Assembly (NCBI GenBank): GCA_016926595.1
Contig: JAFGOG010000112.1
Location: 1-8,614 of the forward strand
From: Anaerolineae bacterium
Lineage (GTDB): Bacteria; Chloroflexota; Anaerolineae; JAAYZQ01
Direction of reading: 5' to 3'
DNA: 8,614 nucleotides
Positions 2,107 to 8,614 of the stretch are shown in pieces. The notes under the pieces are model-generated. The model was not told the origin of the DNA. It was given only the letters and a program-made list of their open reading frames with translations, and searched no databases. Position numbers and translations under genes: made by a program. Position 1 is the stretch's first letter. Every line of letters begins with the position of its first letter.

Positions 2107-3432
2107 TCAGCCGTCAGCCCCCTCGCCCGCCGGGGAGAGGGAGGCGGAGAGGGCGGAAAAGGCCGCGTCGAGGGCAGCCGGGACTTGAGCGGCGTCGGGA
2201 CCGCCGCCCTGGGCGAAATCGGGACGGCCGCCGCCGCGGCCGCCGATGAGCTGGCAGGCCTGGCCAAGCAGGGCGCCGGCGTGAAAATCGAGGTCGGCGG
2301 AGCGGGCAAAGACCAGGTGACCCTTGTCCCCGGCCTGGCCGGCTCCAAGCAGGACAGCGGTTTGCGGGTGGGCGATCAACCGCTGGGCCAGCAACTTGAG
2401 CTCGTCAGGCGCGCGGCTGGCCAGGTAGGCCTGCACGACGTAAAGATCGCCCAGCCGCGCGGCAGCGTGCCACAGCGCGCCGGCCTCGGCATCGAACAGG
2501 GCGTCTTGGGCGTGGCGCAGCTCACGGCGCGCCTCGCGCAGCTCGTCGTCGAGGCGGCGGATAGCTTCGGGCAGCTCCCAATAGCCGACGCTGAGGTCGC
2601 GGGCCATGTCAAGCAGCAGCGCGTTCTTGACCTGATAGTCGGCCAGGGCGCGCCGGCCACACATAAACTCGACGCGGGTCTCGGCGCCACGCCGCTCGCT
2701 GCGGACGATCTTGATCAGGCCGATCTCGCCGGTGGCCCGCACGTGGGTGCCTCCACAGGCCGAGCAGTCGAAATCGGGAATCTCGACGACGCGCAGCGGC
2801 CCGCTGCGGGCCACAGGCTTGCGCAGCGCCAGGCGGTGGACCTCTTTGCCGGGCACAAAGCGGGCAGAGACCGGCCGGTTGTCAAAGACGGCCTGGCTGG
2901 CCAGCGCCTCAGCCTGGGCCAGCTCATCGGCCGACAGGACGCGGTCCAGGTCGATGGTAGCGCAGTCGGCGGTCAAGTGAAAGCTGACCGTGTTGGCCTC
3001 GCAGCACCGGACAAAGGCCGCCGACAGGAGGTGCTGGCCGGTGTGCTGCTGCATCAGGTCAAAACGGCGCTCCCAGTCGATCCGGCCTTCCACCTGAACG
3101 GCGTCGAGCGGAGCGGCGAGGAGATGGATGACGGCGCCATCGGCCTCGCGCTCGACTACCTCGACCACTGCCACCTCCACGCCGCCGTCCCGGCAGCCCT
3201 CGCCGGCATCGCCCGCCTCCAAGGGCTTGAGCATGCCGGTGTCGTGGGGCTGGCCGCCGCCAGTAGGATAGAAGGCGGTCTGATCGAGGACGACCGCCGG
3301 CCGGCCGGCCCACTCCAGCCGCTCGACCACCTGGGCCGTAAAGTGGGTCAGGTAAGGATGGTCGAAATAGAGCCGGTGCCAGACCTGCGGGCCCTTGGCG
3401 ACCCGGGCAGCCCGGGAGCTCCACCTGGTCAT
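2107..3432 (-). CDS. alaX: Alanyl-tRNA editing protein, AlaX-L type (tRNA-SAD plus DHHA1 domains)
   Basis: 441 residues. It resembles the editing and C-terminal parts of alanyl-tRNA synthetase without the catalytic core. Free-standing AlaX proteins hydrolyse Ser (or Gly) mischarged onto tRNA-Ala in the cytoplasm. The N-terminal domain has AFYPTGGGQPHDTG (53-66). The zinc-binding editing centre is built from HTGQH (130-134) and CSACGGTH (223-230), giving H130, H134, C226 and H230. A charged, coiled-coil-like linker (about 289-315) leads to a DHHA1 domain with GGRGGGRPDFAQGGG (397-411), the hallmark of the AlaRS C-terminus. Length and layout fit AlaX-L rather than the shorter AlaX-S/M. An upstream in-frame start exists at 3672, but the 80 residues it adds are unlike AlaX and lie inside the lipoprotein gene. 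The ATG at 3432 overlaps that gene's TGA as ATGA and has AAGAGGAG (3446-3439) 6 nt upstream. All key residues are present. Confidence 0.93.
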   Translation of the reverse strand: MTRWSSRAARVAKGPQVWHRLYFDHPYLTHFTAQVVERLEWAGRPAVVLDQTAFYPTGGGQPHDTGMLKPLEAGDAGEGCRDGGVEVAVVEVVEREADGAVIHLLAAPLDAVQVEGRIDWERRFDLMQQHTGQHLLSAAFVRCCEANTVSFHLTADCATIDLDRVLSADELAQAEALASQAVFDNRPVSARFVPGKEVHRLALRKPVARSGPLRVVEIPDFDCSACGGTHVRATGEIGLIKIVRSERRGAETRVEFMCGRRALADYQVKNALLLDMARDLSVGYWELPEAIRRLDDELREARRELRHAQDALFDAEAGALWHAAARLGDLYVVQAYLASRAPDELKLLAQRLIAHPQTAVLLGAGQAGDKGHLVFARSADLDFHAGALLGQACQLIGGRGGGRPDFAQGGGPDAAQVPAALDAAFSALSASLSPAGEGADG

Positions 3433-4181
3433 GCCCGGCTCCTCTTGGAGGCCCGGCGCAAGGCAGGGCGTTTCTTGTGAGCTGGTTCGCGCGCTGCCCG
3501 GCGCACGGCAGCCACCGCGCCCAGCGCAAGCCATGTCCAGTCGACCGGCACGTTGTATTTCTGGCTCGGCCACTCGTTGAGGGGCTGGCTGCTCTCGATC
3601 GCAAAGGTCTCGACGACGAGCGCAGGATACTGCCTTTGGACCAGTTTCAGGTCGTCGGTGACGCGGGCGCACTCCTGGCAGCCCGCCTTGTCGAAATAGG
3701 CCAGGTAGATCGGTTGGCTTGACTGGACGGCGGACCCCGGCGTGGGGGGATCTGCCGTCAGCGTGGTATAGTCCACGCCGCCCTGGGCCAGGTAGCGGTC
3801 GACCAGCCCTTCCAGCTCGGCCGGAATCTCGCCACTGCCGACCAGTACCTGGTCGCCGATGATCAGCGTCGGAATATAGCCCCGACTGTCTGCGGGCAGG
3901 CCCAGTTTTTCTTCCAACGCCAGCATGGTCTCATAGTTGTTGCCTTTGCCGACATCAATGTATTGATGCTCCACCTGAGCGCCGTACTTGTCGTACACCG
4001 TAGGCAGATAGCTCTCCATGACCTCGTGGCAGTGGGGGCAGGTGGTGCTGTAGAACAGGGTAAAGCGGGCAACCGGCCCGGCCGGCTGTCCGGACGCGCC
4101 GCACGCAGCCAGCAGCAGGGCGAGCAGCAACAAGATGCCGGCAGATCTCGCCGGGAAGGAAACAGCCGACCTGATTTTCAT
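3429..4181 (-). CDS. Lipoprotein with two thioredoxin/glutaredoxin-like domains (CPHC and CQEC), apparently lacking the usual CcdA membrane domain
   Basis: 250 residues. The N-terminus is a lipoprotein signal: basic start, hydrophobic core (15-24) and lipobox LAAC with C27 as the expected lipidated residue, so the protein should be outside the cytoplasmic membrane. Domain 1 (about 38-132) is thioredoxin-like, with FYSTTCPHC (C48, C51) and cis-Pro IPT (103-105). Domain 2 (about 156-212) begins IYLAYFDKAGCQEC (C168, C171). In related proteins known to me, a domain like the second one runs into further sequence and then a CcdA/DsbD-type membrane segment that feeds electrons. Here the similarity stops at KYNVP (208-212), followed by one short hydrophobic stretch (WTWLALGAVAAV, 215-226) and a basic tail reaching the stop. 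That suggests a C-terminal truncation or internal deletion. The probable role is thiol-disulfide exchange. The gene starts 14 bp after the zinc-ribbon stop with a weak ribosome site and overlaps alaX by 4 bp. Confidence 0.85.
   Translation of the reverse strand: MKIRSAVSFPARSAGILLLLALLLAACGASGQPAGPVARFTLFYSTTCPHCHEVMESYLPTVYDKYGAQVEHQYIDVGKGNNYETMLALEEKLGLPADSRGYIPTLIIGDQVLVGSGEIPAELEGLVDRYLAQGGVDYTTLTADPPTPGSAVQSSQPIYLAYFDKAGCQECARVTDDLKLVQRQYPALVVETFAIESSQPLNEWPSQKYNVPVDWTWLALGAVAAVRRAAREPAHKKRPALRRASKRSRA
3433..3446 (-). promoter_or_regulatory. Ribosome binding site that fixes the alaX start
   Basis: AAGAGGAG at 3446-3439 followed by a 6-nt spacer to ATG 3432. It lies inside the end of the lipoprotein gene, whose TGA (3431-3429) shares bases with the ATG. 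This strong site plus the ATGA overlap supports 3432 rather than the longer start at 3672 and suggests coupled translation. Confidence 0.75.
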
Positions 4182-4805: not shown

Positions 4806-4976
4806 GTGCTATGGAGTCCAGACGGATGTGGGCCAGGTAGGCGTCGAAGGTTTTATCCGTCCGTCAAGGGGGTGCAGGCCATCGCCTTTGCGCCGGACGG
4901 ATCGCTATGGCTGGCCACATCCAAAAGGCTGCGCATTTTCGGCCAAAGCACGCCGATTGAATCCACTCACGGCTAG
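4806..4976 (+). pseudogene. Remnant of a beta-propeller (NHL / two-component-propeller-like) gene, 3' end
   Basis: The only convincing plus-strand coding signal. One open frame reads VLWSPDG (4806-4826) and, 21 codons later, VQAIAFAPDGSLWLATS (4872-4922) then KRLRIFG, ending at TAG 4974-4976. The sequence AFAPDGSLWLAT followed by K-R-L-R-I-F is typical of a propeller blade. No start codon with a ribosome site is seen. The frame continues upstream only as antisense of the zinc-ribbon gene, and the stretch between the two PDG motifs is Arg/Gly-rich and unlike a blade. I read it as a decayed C-terminal fragment. Its TAG overlaps the kinase stop codon on the other strand (shared CTAG, 4973-4976). 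The left operon's promoter lies at its left border. A chance resemblance is possible but unlikely for the second motif. Confidence 0.45.
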
Positions 4977-6757
4977 CAACCATCAGCAGCCGTCGGCCTG
5001 GCGGGGAGGGTGAACCAGAAGGTACTGCCCTCGCCAACCTTGCTTTCGACGCCAACCTGCCCGCCAAGCCTCTCAACGATCCGCCCCACGATAGACAGCC
5101 CCAGCCCGTGTCCCTTGGCGTCGATCTGCTCGAGCCGGGTGAACGGGCTGAACAGCCGGGCCTGCTCCTCCGGCGCCAGGCCAGGGCCGCTATCCTTCAC
5201 CCAGAAACGGATCGACGGATCGGCCAGTTTGTCGCCGCCCCGGTCAAACCCCAGCTCGATGCGCAGCGGATCGGCGCCATACTTGAGCGCGTTGCCGACA
5301 TAGTTCACCCACACTTCTTCGACCCAAGGCGCATAGCCGATGGCCACAGGCCAGCGCTGGGGCAGGACGATCTCAGCCTGCCGTGCGGCGATCTCGGCGC
5401 TGAGGCGGATCCTCACCTCAGAGACGATAGCCGCCATGTCTACCGGCCCGGTGGGAAGATCGTCCATCCGGCGCACGCTGGCAAGCAGGAGCAGGTTGTC
5501 GATGATGCTCCTCATCTTGTAGCTCGAAACAAGAACAGTCCGCAGGGTGGCCTTGATCTCCTCCGGCGACTTTTTCCCCACGCCGGCCGCCAGGAGCGAG
5601 GTATAGCCGATGATTGTCGACAGCGGCCCTTTGAGGTCATGGGCGACGGTATGGGCATAGGCATCCAGCTCTGTATTGCGGGCCTCAAGCTCACCGGCAT
5701 ACTGCTGGAGCACCTGTTCGGCCTGGCGGCGCGCGGTCACGTCGTGCAGCACGATCAGCCGCCCGGTCAGCCGCTCGCGCCGGTCGTACAAAGGCGATAT
5801 CCGCAGATCCAGCCACCGTGAGCCGATTGGGCTGTCGAGCGCGACTTCGCTCTGGGCCTCTGGGACATCCTGGTAACGCGCCACCAAGTCGGGCCAGGCG
5901 GCCAGAACAGCACTTGCCTGCTGTCCAATGACATCCGCGGCGTCGCGGCCGATGAACCGGCAGGCCGTGCGATTGATGTCCACCACCCGGTTGCGCGCAT
6001 CGAGCACCAGGACACCGTCGCCCATGCTCTCTACCAGCATATCCCGGGCAACCGGCACCAGGTCCAAGATCTGAAAGCGCAAAAACGCCACAACTGCCGT
6101 CAGGCCGGTCAGGGCAAAAGCGATGGGTGTGAGGTCCAAGCCGGGCAGGGGCACCAGCCCGGCTACGTACAGCGCATTTCCCACCCAGGGCATAGCCGCG
6201 CCGACCAGCATCACCTTGGCCTGCCTCCGATACAACCGCGGAGGGCGCAGTATCGCCCGCACCAGCAGGATCGTTCCCAACAGCAGCAGCAAGTAGGAAT
6301 ATGCCCACTCGACCCAAAATCCAATGCCATGGTCGTAGATCAGTATCGCGCCCGGCGCAGCGGAGGCCGGGGTAATCCTTGGCCAGATCAGGTGATGCCA
6401 CTCGTTGGTAAAGACCAGCGCCAGCGTGATCGCCGGCACAATCCACAGAAGCGCTATTCGGCGCGGCGCCAGCCATTCGTTGCGCTGCGCATAGTCCAGG
6501 ACAAAGAGCAGCCACGACGGAGCGACGCCGACGATGCCCAGGTAGGTGACCTTCGACCACCATATCTTGGCCGGCACGGCGACAGCGGCAAACTCGCCGG
6601 CAGTAGACAGAGCCCACATGGCTACGGCCAGCATCAACAGGACGAGACAGGCGCCGCCGGGCGCAGCTCGCTGCCGCCAGGCATAGATCGCCACCGACAC
6701 GGCGATTCCCGCCGCTATGGCCGATACGACGATGTAGGGCACATTCTGTGGATTCAT
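4973..6757 (-). CDS. Sensor histidine kinase: 7TM N-terminal region, PAS, HisKA, HATPase_c
   Basis: 594 residues. About seven hydrophobic segments (near 7-26, 36-56, 71-90, 101-118, 147-168, 182-202, 208-227) match the histidine-kinase N-terminal 7TM region. A PAS domain (about 235-343) follows, with GDGVLVLDARNRVVDINRTA (247-266). The HisKA H-box AHTVAHDLKGPLS (368-380) places the phospho-acceptor at H373. The ATPase domain shows the N box (VNYVGNALKYG, 484-494), G1 DSGPGL (522-527), an F box (FSPFTRLEQ, 536-544) and G2 GHGLGLSIV (549-557), so it looks catalytically intact. It should sit in the membrane and phosphorylate a response regulator. No receiver domain or regulator gene is in the window, so it is an orphan here. 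The ATG at 6757 is 7 bp after the chlD VWA stop; the nearest GGAG (6774-6771) is 13 nt upstream, suggesting coupled translation. The signal is unknown. Confidence 0.93.
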   Translation of the reverse strand: MNPQNVPYIVVSAIAAGIAVSVAIYAWRQRAAPGGACLVLLMLAVAMWALSTAGEFAAVAVPAKIWWSKVTYLGIVGVAPSWLLFVLDYAQRNEWLAPRRIALLWIVPAITLALVFTNEWHHLIWPRITPASAAPGAILIYDHGIGFWVEWAYSYLLLLLGTILLVRAILRPPRLYRRQAKVMLVGAAMPWVGNALYVAGLVPLPGLDLTPIAFALTGLTAVVAFLRFQILDLVPVARDMLVESMGDGVLVLDARNRVVDINRTACRFIGRDAADVIGQQASAVLAAWPDLVARYQDVPEAQSEVALDSPIGSRWLDLRISPLYDRRERLTGRLIVLHDVTARRQAEQVLQQYAGELEARNTELDAYAHTVAHDLKGPLSTIIGYTSLLAAGVGKKSPEEIKATLRTVLVSSYKMRSIIDNLLLLASVRRMDDLPTGPVDMAAIVSEVRIRLSAEIAARQAEIVLPQRWPVAIGYAPWVEEVWVNYVGNALKYGADPLRIELGFDRGGDKLADPSIRFWVKDSGPGLAPEEQARLFSPFTRLEQIDAKGHGLGLSIVGRIVERLGGQVGVESKVGEGSTFWFTLPARPTAADGC

Positions 6758-6764
6758 CGGGAGC

Positions 6765-7745
6765 TCACTGCTCCAGCCGTTCGCGAACCGTCCGGTACAG
6801 CTCTGTCGCCTTGAGCTCGGCCAGACGGTAACACGAACCGCGCAGTACCTCGGCCAGCTCTTGGGCCAGGCCGCGGTCGTAGGACGGGTGCTCCATGTTG
6901 ATCACCACCGAATGGATCCCGGCGGCGTGGATCAGGTCGCCCACTTGCAGCGCCTCTTCCTGTGGCGGCAGGTCGGTAAGCGCCACGTTGCCAGCGCCGT
7001 CGGTCAGCAGGATCAACAGCGGCATGGCCTCGGGGTTGAGGCGCATCTCGCGGTGAAAGACGCGGTAGGCGAGCAACAGCCCGGCGGCCAGCGGGGTCTT
7101 GCCGCCAACCGGCAGGTGGCGCAAAGCTCGCTGGGCCAGCTCGACGCTGGACGTAAAGGGCAGCACCAGCCGGGCCTCTTCCTTCTGAAAGACGACCAGC
7201 CCCACCCGGTCACGCTTCTGGTAAGCGTCGATAAGCAGTGACATGATCGCGCCCTTGGTGGCCTCCATCCGCTGCGCGCCGGCCATGCTCCAACTGGCAT
7301 CGACGACGAACAGGATCAGGTTGCCGGCGCGGCGGACGCGGACTTTGCGCTGGACGTCATCGGTCGTGAGCGCCAAGGTCCCGGCAGCTCCCGCCGGGAG
7401 GGCGCCCGCCTCGGCGCCGCGCTCGACCTGGTACAGGGCCGCGCGGCGCAGCGTGGCGTCGAGCGCCACATCCGACAGGTCGCCATGGGCCGGACGGGAC
7501 TGGACGTAACGTCCCCGCTTGCGGCTGGTACGGGTGAAGGAGCGCTTGCCGGCAGCATGGCGGGTCAGCCGGTCGAGGGGCGACTCGACCCGGCGCGGGT
7601 TGAACACACTGCCGATGGTTGGCACAATGTCCACCTGTTGGGCGCCGCCGACGCCCAGCGGGTCGGCGACATGGCCTTTGATCGGGGCGCCTTCCCCGCC
7701 TGAGCTGAGATCAGAGGGCGACGGCGGCCCGTCATCCGTTACTTC
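6765..7745 (-). CDS. chlD: ChlD-type VWA domain, C-terminal part of a chelatase subunit reached by -1 frameshift
   Basis: After the slip site the -1 frame starts at 7745 (GAA GTA ACG) and runs 326 codons to TGA 6767-6765. The first about 37 residues form an acidic, Gly/Pro-rich linker, as expected between the AAA+ and VWA parts of ChlD. The VWA domain follows. Counting from the GTG at 7634, it has the MIDAS motif DASWS (112-116), T180 in [10 protein letters not shown] and D212 in LLTDGAGN. The segment [28 protein letters not shown] (122-149) is typical of Mg/Co-chelatase medium subunits. These subunits bind the AAA+ ring and the large porphyrin- or corrin-binding subunit (ChlH or CobN). Separate translation from GTG 7634 is possible, but no Shine-Dalgarno sequence precedes it and there is no ATG or GTG between 7745 and 7635. 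I therefore treat it as the second half of one gene. MIDAS residues are intact. Homopolymer sequencing error is the main alternative. Confidence 0.85.
7720..7733 (-). promoter_or_regulatory. Hairpin downstream of the slip site (possible frameshift stimulator)
   Basis: GACGG (7733-7729), loop GCCG, CCGTC (7724-7720): a perfect 5-bp GC-rich stem starting 11 nt after the heptamer. A second perfect hairpin lies further on: CGGGG (7698-7694), a 6-nt loop, CCCCG (7687-7683). The first spacer is slightly longer than the usual 5-9 nt, so a stimulating role is plausible but not certain. GC-rich DNA forms such stems often by chance. Confidence 0.4.
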
Positions 7746-7754
7746 TTTTTTTTT
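7739..7754 (-). promoter_or_regulatory. Predicted recoding site: A-AAA-AAG slippery sequence before the TAA stop of the chelatase ATPase frame
   Basis: The mRNA has nine A residues (7754-7746) then G (7745). In the ATPase frame this reads GGA AAA AAA AAG AAG TAA, so the heptamer A AAA AAG (7751-7745) lies in the correct X-XXY-YYZ register for -1 slippage, as in dnaX. A -1 slip makes the next codon GAA at 7745 and enters the VWA frame exactly. The TAA is one codon beyond the heptamer. An A9 run can also cause RNA polymerase slippage, and one extra A would give the same fusion. Confidence 0.72.
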
Positions 7755-8614
7755 CCTGCGTCGCTCGACTCGCCGGCCTGTGAGCCGGGAGCCGCCGCAG
7801 CCGCGCCTGCCGGCTTTTCGTTGACCTTGTCGCGAGCCTCACTCAAACGGACCGCCAGGTCCTCCAGGCTGAGAGCTCCATCCTGGAACGGCTGGCGCCT
7901 CAAGCGGTGGGGCAAGGCCAGCTCAGCGGCGGCCAGGATGTCGACCTCGGTCACCGCCGGCTCTTCGCGCCGTCCGGTCCCGTCGCGCGACAGGCGTAGA
8001 GCAGCGTGGGCCAGGGCCGCCTTCAGGATGACGATATCGGCCCGATGGCCGTCGACGTTATATGCAGCCGTCAGCTCGGCGATGGTGTACATGTTGTCGG
8101 CGTCGTACGTCACCTGCGGTAACAGCTCGCGGGCGCGGGCGATCTCGCCACAGACCTGCCGTTCGTACAGCTCCCACTCGGCAAAGAAACCGTCGGGGTC
8201 GCTCTCGAATTCGACGGTGCGCTCCAGGATGTTGACCCGCGACAGGGGATCGGCGATGCCCCGCACCTCGACGCACAGGGCAAAGCGGTCGAGGAGCTGA
8301 GGGCGCAGCTCACCCTCTTCGGGGTTCATGGTGCCGACCAGGATGAAACGGGCCGGATGGGTGAAGGAGATGCCCTCGCGCTCCACGACGTTGCGGCCCA
8401 TGGCCGCCGAGTCGAGCAGCAGGTCGACGACGTGATCGTCGAGCAGGTTGACTTCGTCGACATAGAGCAGGCCACGGTTGGCAGCAGCCAGCACGCCCGG
8501 CTCGAACCTTTTCCGGCCGGTCTTGAGCGCAGCCTCGATGTCGAGGGTGCCGACTACCCGGTCCTCGGTGGCGCTGACCGGCAGGTCAACGAACCGGATC
8601 CGGCGACGGGCGAC
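7739..8614 (-). CDS. chlD: ChlI/ChlD-type AAA+ chelatase ATPase domain (5' partial), zero-frame product
   Basis: 291 residues are visible; the N-terminus with Walker A lies beyond the right edge. Residues count from the edge. [16 protein letters not shown] (15-30) and [20 protein letters not shown] (37-56, Walker B with D53/E54) are hallmarks of magnesium-chelatase AAA+ subunits. Sensor 1 [18 protein letters not shown] (94-111) includes the arginine region, and the lid has [12 protein letters not shown] (189-200). After the AAA+ lid (ending about 243) comes a short Ala/Pro/Ser-rich tail ending in four lysines, then TAA (7741-7739). This terminated form has the size and content of a ChlI-like small subunit, while reading through by -1 frameshift gives ChlD. 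The pair would power metal insertion into a tetrapyrrole. With no photosynthesis genes visible, a cobalt chelatase role with CobN is plausible but unproven. The last 20 residues before TAA are low complexity. Confidence 0.92.

Follow-up and report, generated by a model that had tools for sequence, protein, structure and literature searches.

Slippage within dnaX sets the clamp-loader subunits tau and gamma, and frameshifting reportedly also occurs in the fs-chlD magnesium/cobalt chelatase genes that Antonov described in MBE in 2020. In the portions of the fs-chlD literature available to us (Antonov 2013, PMC3711429; Kuznetsov 2022, PMC9227772), these genes carry their AAA+ and VWA domains in frames 0 and -1, with an A_AAA_AAR motif and a stop right after it, and the gene that we describe here is like them in each of these points. 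For other chelatase genes tested with reporters in E. coli, runs of 7, 9 and 11 A's led to frameshifting of 10, 40 and 63%, respectively, according to the accessible part of PMC3711429; the same part presents fused chelatase proteins as functional parallels, and we found in it no mention of a kept A-run in them. PMC9227772, as far as it was accessible, lists Anaerolineae members of the fs-chlD family, some without CobN/ChlH, and calls their function unexplored.

The sequence analysed here, referred to as the window, is a stretch of 8,614 nucleotides from an Anaerolineae genome. We consider it likely that the window holds a chlD-type gene in which a run of nine A's (A9) acts as a programmed slip site, giving a short AAA+ and a long AAA+/VWA product that probably serve no chelatase reaction with cobalt or magnesium. 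Read on the minus strand, the AAA+ frame closes with GGA (7756-7754) AAA AAA AAG (7747-7745) AAG TAA (7741-7739), so the original prediction had correctly placed this stop one codon past an A-rich heptamer (Table 1). The AAA+ and VWA domains of one chlD thus lie in different frames, with an in-phase A_AAA_AAR heptamer within their overlap. The reading frames also bear out the earlier placement of the VWA domain in a -1 frame that is open to 6765: from the slip site this frame reads GAA GTA ACG GAT (E V T D), has no stop until 6765, and has no ATG, GTG or TTG ahead of the GTG at 7634, which had rightly been named as its first start. No A/T run of 7 or more other than A9 occurs in the window, whose GC content is 66.4%, and 0 of 200 shuffles contained an A9.

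Both halves match TIGR02442, a family named putative cobaltochelatase, in order (positions 84-343, then 388-640), with 351 and 256 bits; the cut-off of 779.45 is reached neither singly nor by the sum, the 5' end being outside the window. The earlier description of a single chlD holds in that the two parts belong to one gene, but the window edge cuts this gene, and its N-terminal part with Walker A lies outside. The NCBIfam and Pfam matches of the two halves are chelatase subunits, and the AAA+ and VWA halves match solved ChlI and BchD-VWA chains. The VWA half has the motifs DASWS, GGKTPL and TDGAGN, which we take to be MIDAS-like. In a homologue search that scored 7999 candidates, with the best 120 of 2476 proteins at E <= 1e-100 listed, the top-scoring homologue (P0001) was a continuous protein of 712 aa, 73% identical to the window. 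Its linker, GKKKDVTGDD, aligns with the -1 join of the window, and because P0001 crosses the junction in one frame, it backs this join. Refolding a 70-nt segment downstream of the run gave z -1.14.

Table 1. Positions of the features around the junction of the chlD-type gene in the window.
Feature	Positions	Strand	Remarks
AAA+ (ChlI-like) part, predicted short product	7739..8614	-	frame 0; carries Walker motif; 5' end beyond window edge
A9 run, putative slip site	7746..7754	-	A_AAA_AAA at 7754-7748; with G7745, A_AAA_AAG at 7751-7745; both in zero frame
Zero-frame stop TAA	7739..7741	-	one codon past the A9 run
TGA in the third (+1) frame	7732..7734	-	also shortly past the A9 run
Linker and VWA domain, -1 frame	6765..7745	-	E V T D ... 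L E Q stop
Earliest possible start in the VWA frame, GTG	7632..7634	-	107 nt beyond the first base of the AAA stop
Candidate downstream hairpins, weak	7640..7745	-	z -1.85; 10/200 shuffles fold equally well

Several other genes were noted in the window, on the same strand. A 7TM-type histidine kinase with a PAS domain (4973-6757; HisKA_7TM, Pfam) starts 7 nt past the VWA stop, so it may share one transcript with chlD. At 2107-3672 and 3429-4181 lie an alanyl-tRNA-editing-like protein (tRNA_SAD, DHHA1) and the ORF before it, whose end runs into the start listed for the protein; the true start of the protein is probably further in. A metallo-beta-lactamase-fold protein (1144-2094) overlaps by 11 nt a DUF362/ferredoxin ORF (3-1154), which is cut by the window edge.

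For comparison, we used the 80 loci that ranked best out of 560 in a single scan of GTDB contigs, whose titles nearly all name Chloroflexota groups (Anaerolineae, Thermoflexales, others), and a class-wide search around genome G001, in which at least 361 of 396 genomes had TIGR02442 at E <= 1e-60. The class search added 51 continuous places (50 of the 57 listed long open frames, 7 being already in the set, plus one partial) and 29 split places picked for sufficient downstream sequence; continuous genes are oversampled in this set. With the window there were 161 rows, and after L063, which is without a VWA part, was dropped, 160 junctions were compared. Of these, 59 are continuous, 99, counting the window, are split in -1, and the remaining 2 (L010 and L171) are split in +1. 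The rows are kin, and counts taken from them are not independent.

The slip site is kept across these relatives. A run of A7-A10 stands between the AAA domain and its stop in 101/101 split genes, and an A7+ run is found in 43/59 continuous ones; the 242,229 nt of these genes outside the linkers contain 12 A7+ runs. In 95 of the 99 -1-split genes, the zero frame meets a stop no more than 10 codons after the run, against a mean of 34.2 in 1000 simulated draws in which codons were redrawn with the amino acids unchanged. None of the draws reached 95, so the early stops go beyond what the amino acids need. A_AAA_AAA is in phase in every one of the 17 A7 runs. Codon usage at the run is 313 AAA to 36 AAG, compared with 1368 to 1639 elsewhere, a difference that is partly circular, since the runs were chosen as A-rich. 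As the original prediction anticipated for aligned junctions, the slip site and the stop right after it are conserved while the linker varies, and its central claim, one gene giving two products by slippage at the A-run, appears well supported by this conservation. Among the run-bearing genes, 143/143 of those whose 5' end is complete have Walker A, and 144/144 have Walker B; a regular expression for the MIDAS motif DxSxS matches 129/144, the misses possibly reflecting limits of the pattern or the alignment. Since the Walker counts are complete, the short and long products would share one ATPase domain with intact motifs.

Another way to obtain two proteins would be two separate genes, the VWA protein being made by reinitiation downstream of the AAA stop. 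Some paralogues (L210-L212) do look like this: they are run-free, their VWA start overlaps the stop, and the start stands behind GGAGG in L210 and L211 and at the same position with GTG in L212. The first start in the window, however, comes 107 nt on, and usable VWA starts are few among the 99 -1-split genes: 24 have no ATG, GTG or TTG in the VWA frame before its conserved part, 58 have no ATG, and in 2 a Shine-Dalgarno (SD)-like 4-mer accompanies a start close to the stop. Two separate genes would also leave unexplained the conserved A-run and the mirror forms described below, and we regard this arrangement as very improbable here.

If slippage makes the two products, the slipping agent could be the ribosome at A_AAA_AAA/A_AAA_AAG or RNA polymerase, which would alter the number of A's and give mRNAs in all three frames. 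Polymerase slippage at A9-A10 runs is a serious candidate, to which we give rather less than even weight. Run lengths of A9-A10 occur in 81/99 -1-split and 33/43 continuous run-bearing genes, but the remainder (18/99 and 10/43) have only A7-A8, and the A7 runs are all in ribosomal phase. Third-frame stops within 10 codons are enriched in both forms, 90/99 (simulated 50.3) and 26/43 (simulated 10.7), which favours polymerase slippage because -1 ribosomal shifting alone needs none; their relation to run length in split genes is unclear, however (14/18 for A7-A8, 76/81 for A9-A10). The two genes split in +1 also fit polymerase slippage, as does the absence of clear stimulators at the run, a point that counts against our main reading as well. 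In split genes the mean downstream folding z was -0.56, compared with -0.32 and -0.18 in control stretches, with no clear structure; upstream SD-like 4-mers were at most slightly above control (32/99 vs 24/99), and continuous genes had fewer such motifs than control (25/43 vs 29/43). Thermus dnaX offers a precedent, having an A9 run and a stop in each of the two other frames (available parts of PMC5009743 and PMC1088944), but the accessible part of PMC3711429 classes the published chelatase cases as ribosomal. Ribosome and polymerase slippage may both act. Of additional note, L010 and L171, with runs of A9 and A10, have the VWA frame in +1, reflecting either the other slip direction or an indel error. 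A length threshold dividing ribosomal from polymerase slippage was also considered, and none was seen in split genes.

The continuous genes present a mirror form of the same junction. The 43 of them with A7-A10 at the same place have a -1 stop within 10 codons past the run in every case, against a simulated mean of 18.1 (0/1000 draws reaching 43) and 22% at control positions. Judging from these frames, slipping in the mirror form would yield the short product and straight reading the long one. The other 16 continuous genes have no A7+ run (12 have none, 4 have A5-6); 7 are paralogues of 43-53% identity and 9 are closer kin. These 16 stand against our main reading, particularly L001 and L138, which lie close to the window in the tree; since their genomes have no other ChlI-like gene above 28 bits, the second product is not always kept.

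With the seven paralogues taken out, a tree of 153 rows shows 16 changes between the split and the run-bearing continuous forms, or 6 once 12 lone rows (9 continuous, 3 split) are dropped. The 98.4% identical pair of L059 (A9, split) and L148 (A10, continuous) illustrates how a single A can switch the form. Because six of the seven continuous A10 genes stand as lone rows, the count of 16 changes may be too high through homopolymer errors or very recent indels. The same concern applies to the window, a lone split row whose nearest rows are L134 (continuous, A9), L137 (continuous, A10) and the run-free, continuous L138 and L001; P0001 is continuous as well. These observations, together with the L059/L148 pair and the lone A10 rows, would fit an assembly or sequencing error by which a true A10 run, and one continuous chlD, appears as A9, and they weigh to that extent against our main reading. 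Yet the 99 -1-split rows come from many assemblies, and a window gene corrected to A10 would still have its A-run, and its TAA would then fall in the -1 frame, giving a mirror form and no ordinary gene. We therefore judge such an error unlikely. Because the nearest kin are of the mirror or run-free form, A10 instead of A9 would change the default product of the window with the slip site staying in place. Ten A's, which the original prediction took as refuting a dual output, are not decisive, because continuous relatives have retained the run together with an early stop in the -1 frame. If the default product flips while the slip site stays, selection keeps the two-product output; such flips, if real, would be a stronger argument for function than the slip site alone and would parallel dnaX, another AAA+ ring gene. 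In the examined parts of the 2013 and 2022 fs-chlD papers, we found no mention of the mirror form, which does not establish its absence from print.

Our preferred reading, programmed slippage at the run, can be put as a mechanism. Straight reading would give a short AAA+ (ChlI-like) protein ending one codon past the run, and a slip into the -1 frame would give a long AAA+/VWA (ChlD-like) protein. Since both products have the same ATPase domain, slippage would set how many ring subunits carry a VWA tail, by analogy with tau and gamma of dnaX. We infer that slippage takes place in this organism, at some ratio, and that the products share a ring, which by the same analogy would be of mixed VWA content. 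Going further, we tentatively suggest, at close to an even balance, that the Anaerolineae orphan chlD is a reversible two-product gene: the run is kept, the frame roles flip repeatedly, in part by slipping of the RNA polymerase, and the VWA stoichiometry of an AAA+ ring depends on slippage; in most of these bacteria this ring would act on some other target without CobN or ChlH.

As to this target, the original prediction held that the two products are partners of CobN. The name of TIGR02442 agrees with this, but the distribution of the large subunit does not. CobN/ChlH (PF02514) was found over the cut-off in 4 and CbiC in 3 of 50 relatives' genomes, taken from the 80 genomes of the loci; among the class genomes, CobN/ChlH was over the cut-off in 46/396, 44 of these being among the 361 family-positive genomes in the matches listed, and CbiC in 28/396. 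The genomes of the window's four nearest relatives have no CobN over the cut-off. The same CobN/ChlH search found it in 5/14 control genomes. In addition, CobN and/or CbiC stands no more than about 4 kb away from 6 of the 7 fetched run-free continuous paralogues (L116, L117, L124, L129, L155 and L166; not L164), and 5 of these 6 genomes also carry a separate run-bearing copy. In genome G205, the copy beside CobN is a run-free pair of genes with its own start (L210), and L211 and L212 are alike. Because the pair in this clade is mostly without the CobN/ChlH large subunit, its target is probably other than the cobalt or magnesium chelatase reaction.

Against this stand nine of the 44 genomes, each with a CobN-family gene (G404, G267, G215, G257, G384, G301, G310, G333 and G368), in which TIGR02442 matches nothing but the two halves of a single A8 split chlD (L213-L221). 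These split genes are closely similar, and CobN is not adjacent where it is on the same contig. The nine genomes weaken the notion that the slip-site copy is never a CobN partner. We therefore regard partnership with CobN as possible in this lineage and doubtful in the family; for the slip-site pair as originally described, it is unlikely. A ChlI/ChlD pair without CobN/ChlH is a published open question, and it becomes easier to test, because several genomes hold a cobalamin copy and a slip-site copy together.

We also looked at other possible components in the relatives. TIGR02030 was over its cut-off in 3/50 genomes, and 23/50 had an extra ChlI-like match of about 200-285 bits. The 14 of these 23 that were fetched (L196-L209) are AAA-only ChlI-like proteins, mostly of about 400 aa and about 40% identical to the window AAA; no VWA match was found near them in the fetched stretches. 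In several of them the following gene, judged from its sequence alone, resembles an rRNA methyltransferase or a membrane protein. The extra match occurs in 2/8 genomes with continuous chlD (G004, G044) and in 21/42 others, so a stand-alone chlI does not replace the slip site. When the ORFs of 81 loci were clustered, chlD was the only family present in more than 22 of the loci, and no partner gene was suggested.

The window gene is a real, conserved slip-site chlD, of a kind already published as fs-chlD, Anaerolineae included, to which it adds one gene. It is itself of no different kind from fs-chlD; the difference is the mirror form among its relatives. What is worth following is this reversible arrangement together with the large subunit missing in relatives. 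The CobN-linked ChlD/BchD of cobalamin clusters has the same AAA+/VWA architecture as the slip-site chlD, whereas the copies beside CobN/CbiC, 43-56% identical in the AAA domain, have no A7+ run and are continuous or two genes with their own start. In the available part of PMC5009743, dnaX resembles the window gene as one gene with a shared AAA+ ATPase, an A-run slip site and long and short products, and both orientations are known. It differs in protein family and tail domain, and the two orientations of chlD occur within one bacterial class. In its NCBIfam and Pfam matches the gene shows no homology to DNA polymerase III tau/gamma, so the likeness to dnaX is in how the gene would work. A further match in this respect is Thermus thermophilus dnaX, whose A9 and double stops recur in chlD and for which, in the accessible parts of PMC5009743 and PMC1088944, RNA polymerase slippage is shown, whereas for chlD it is suggested.
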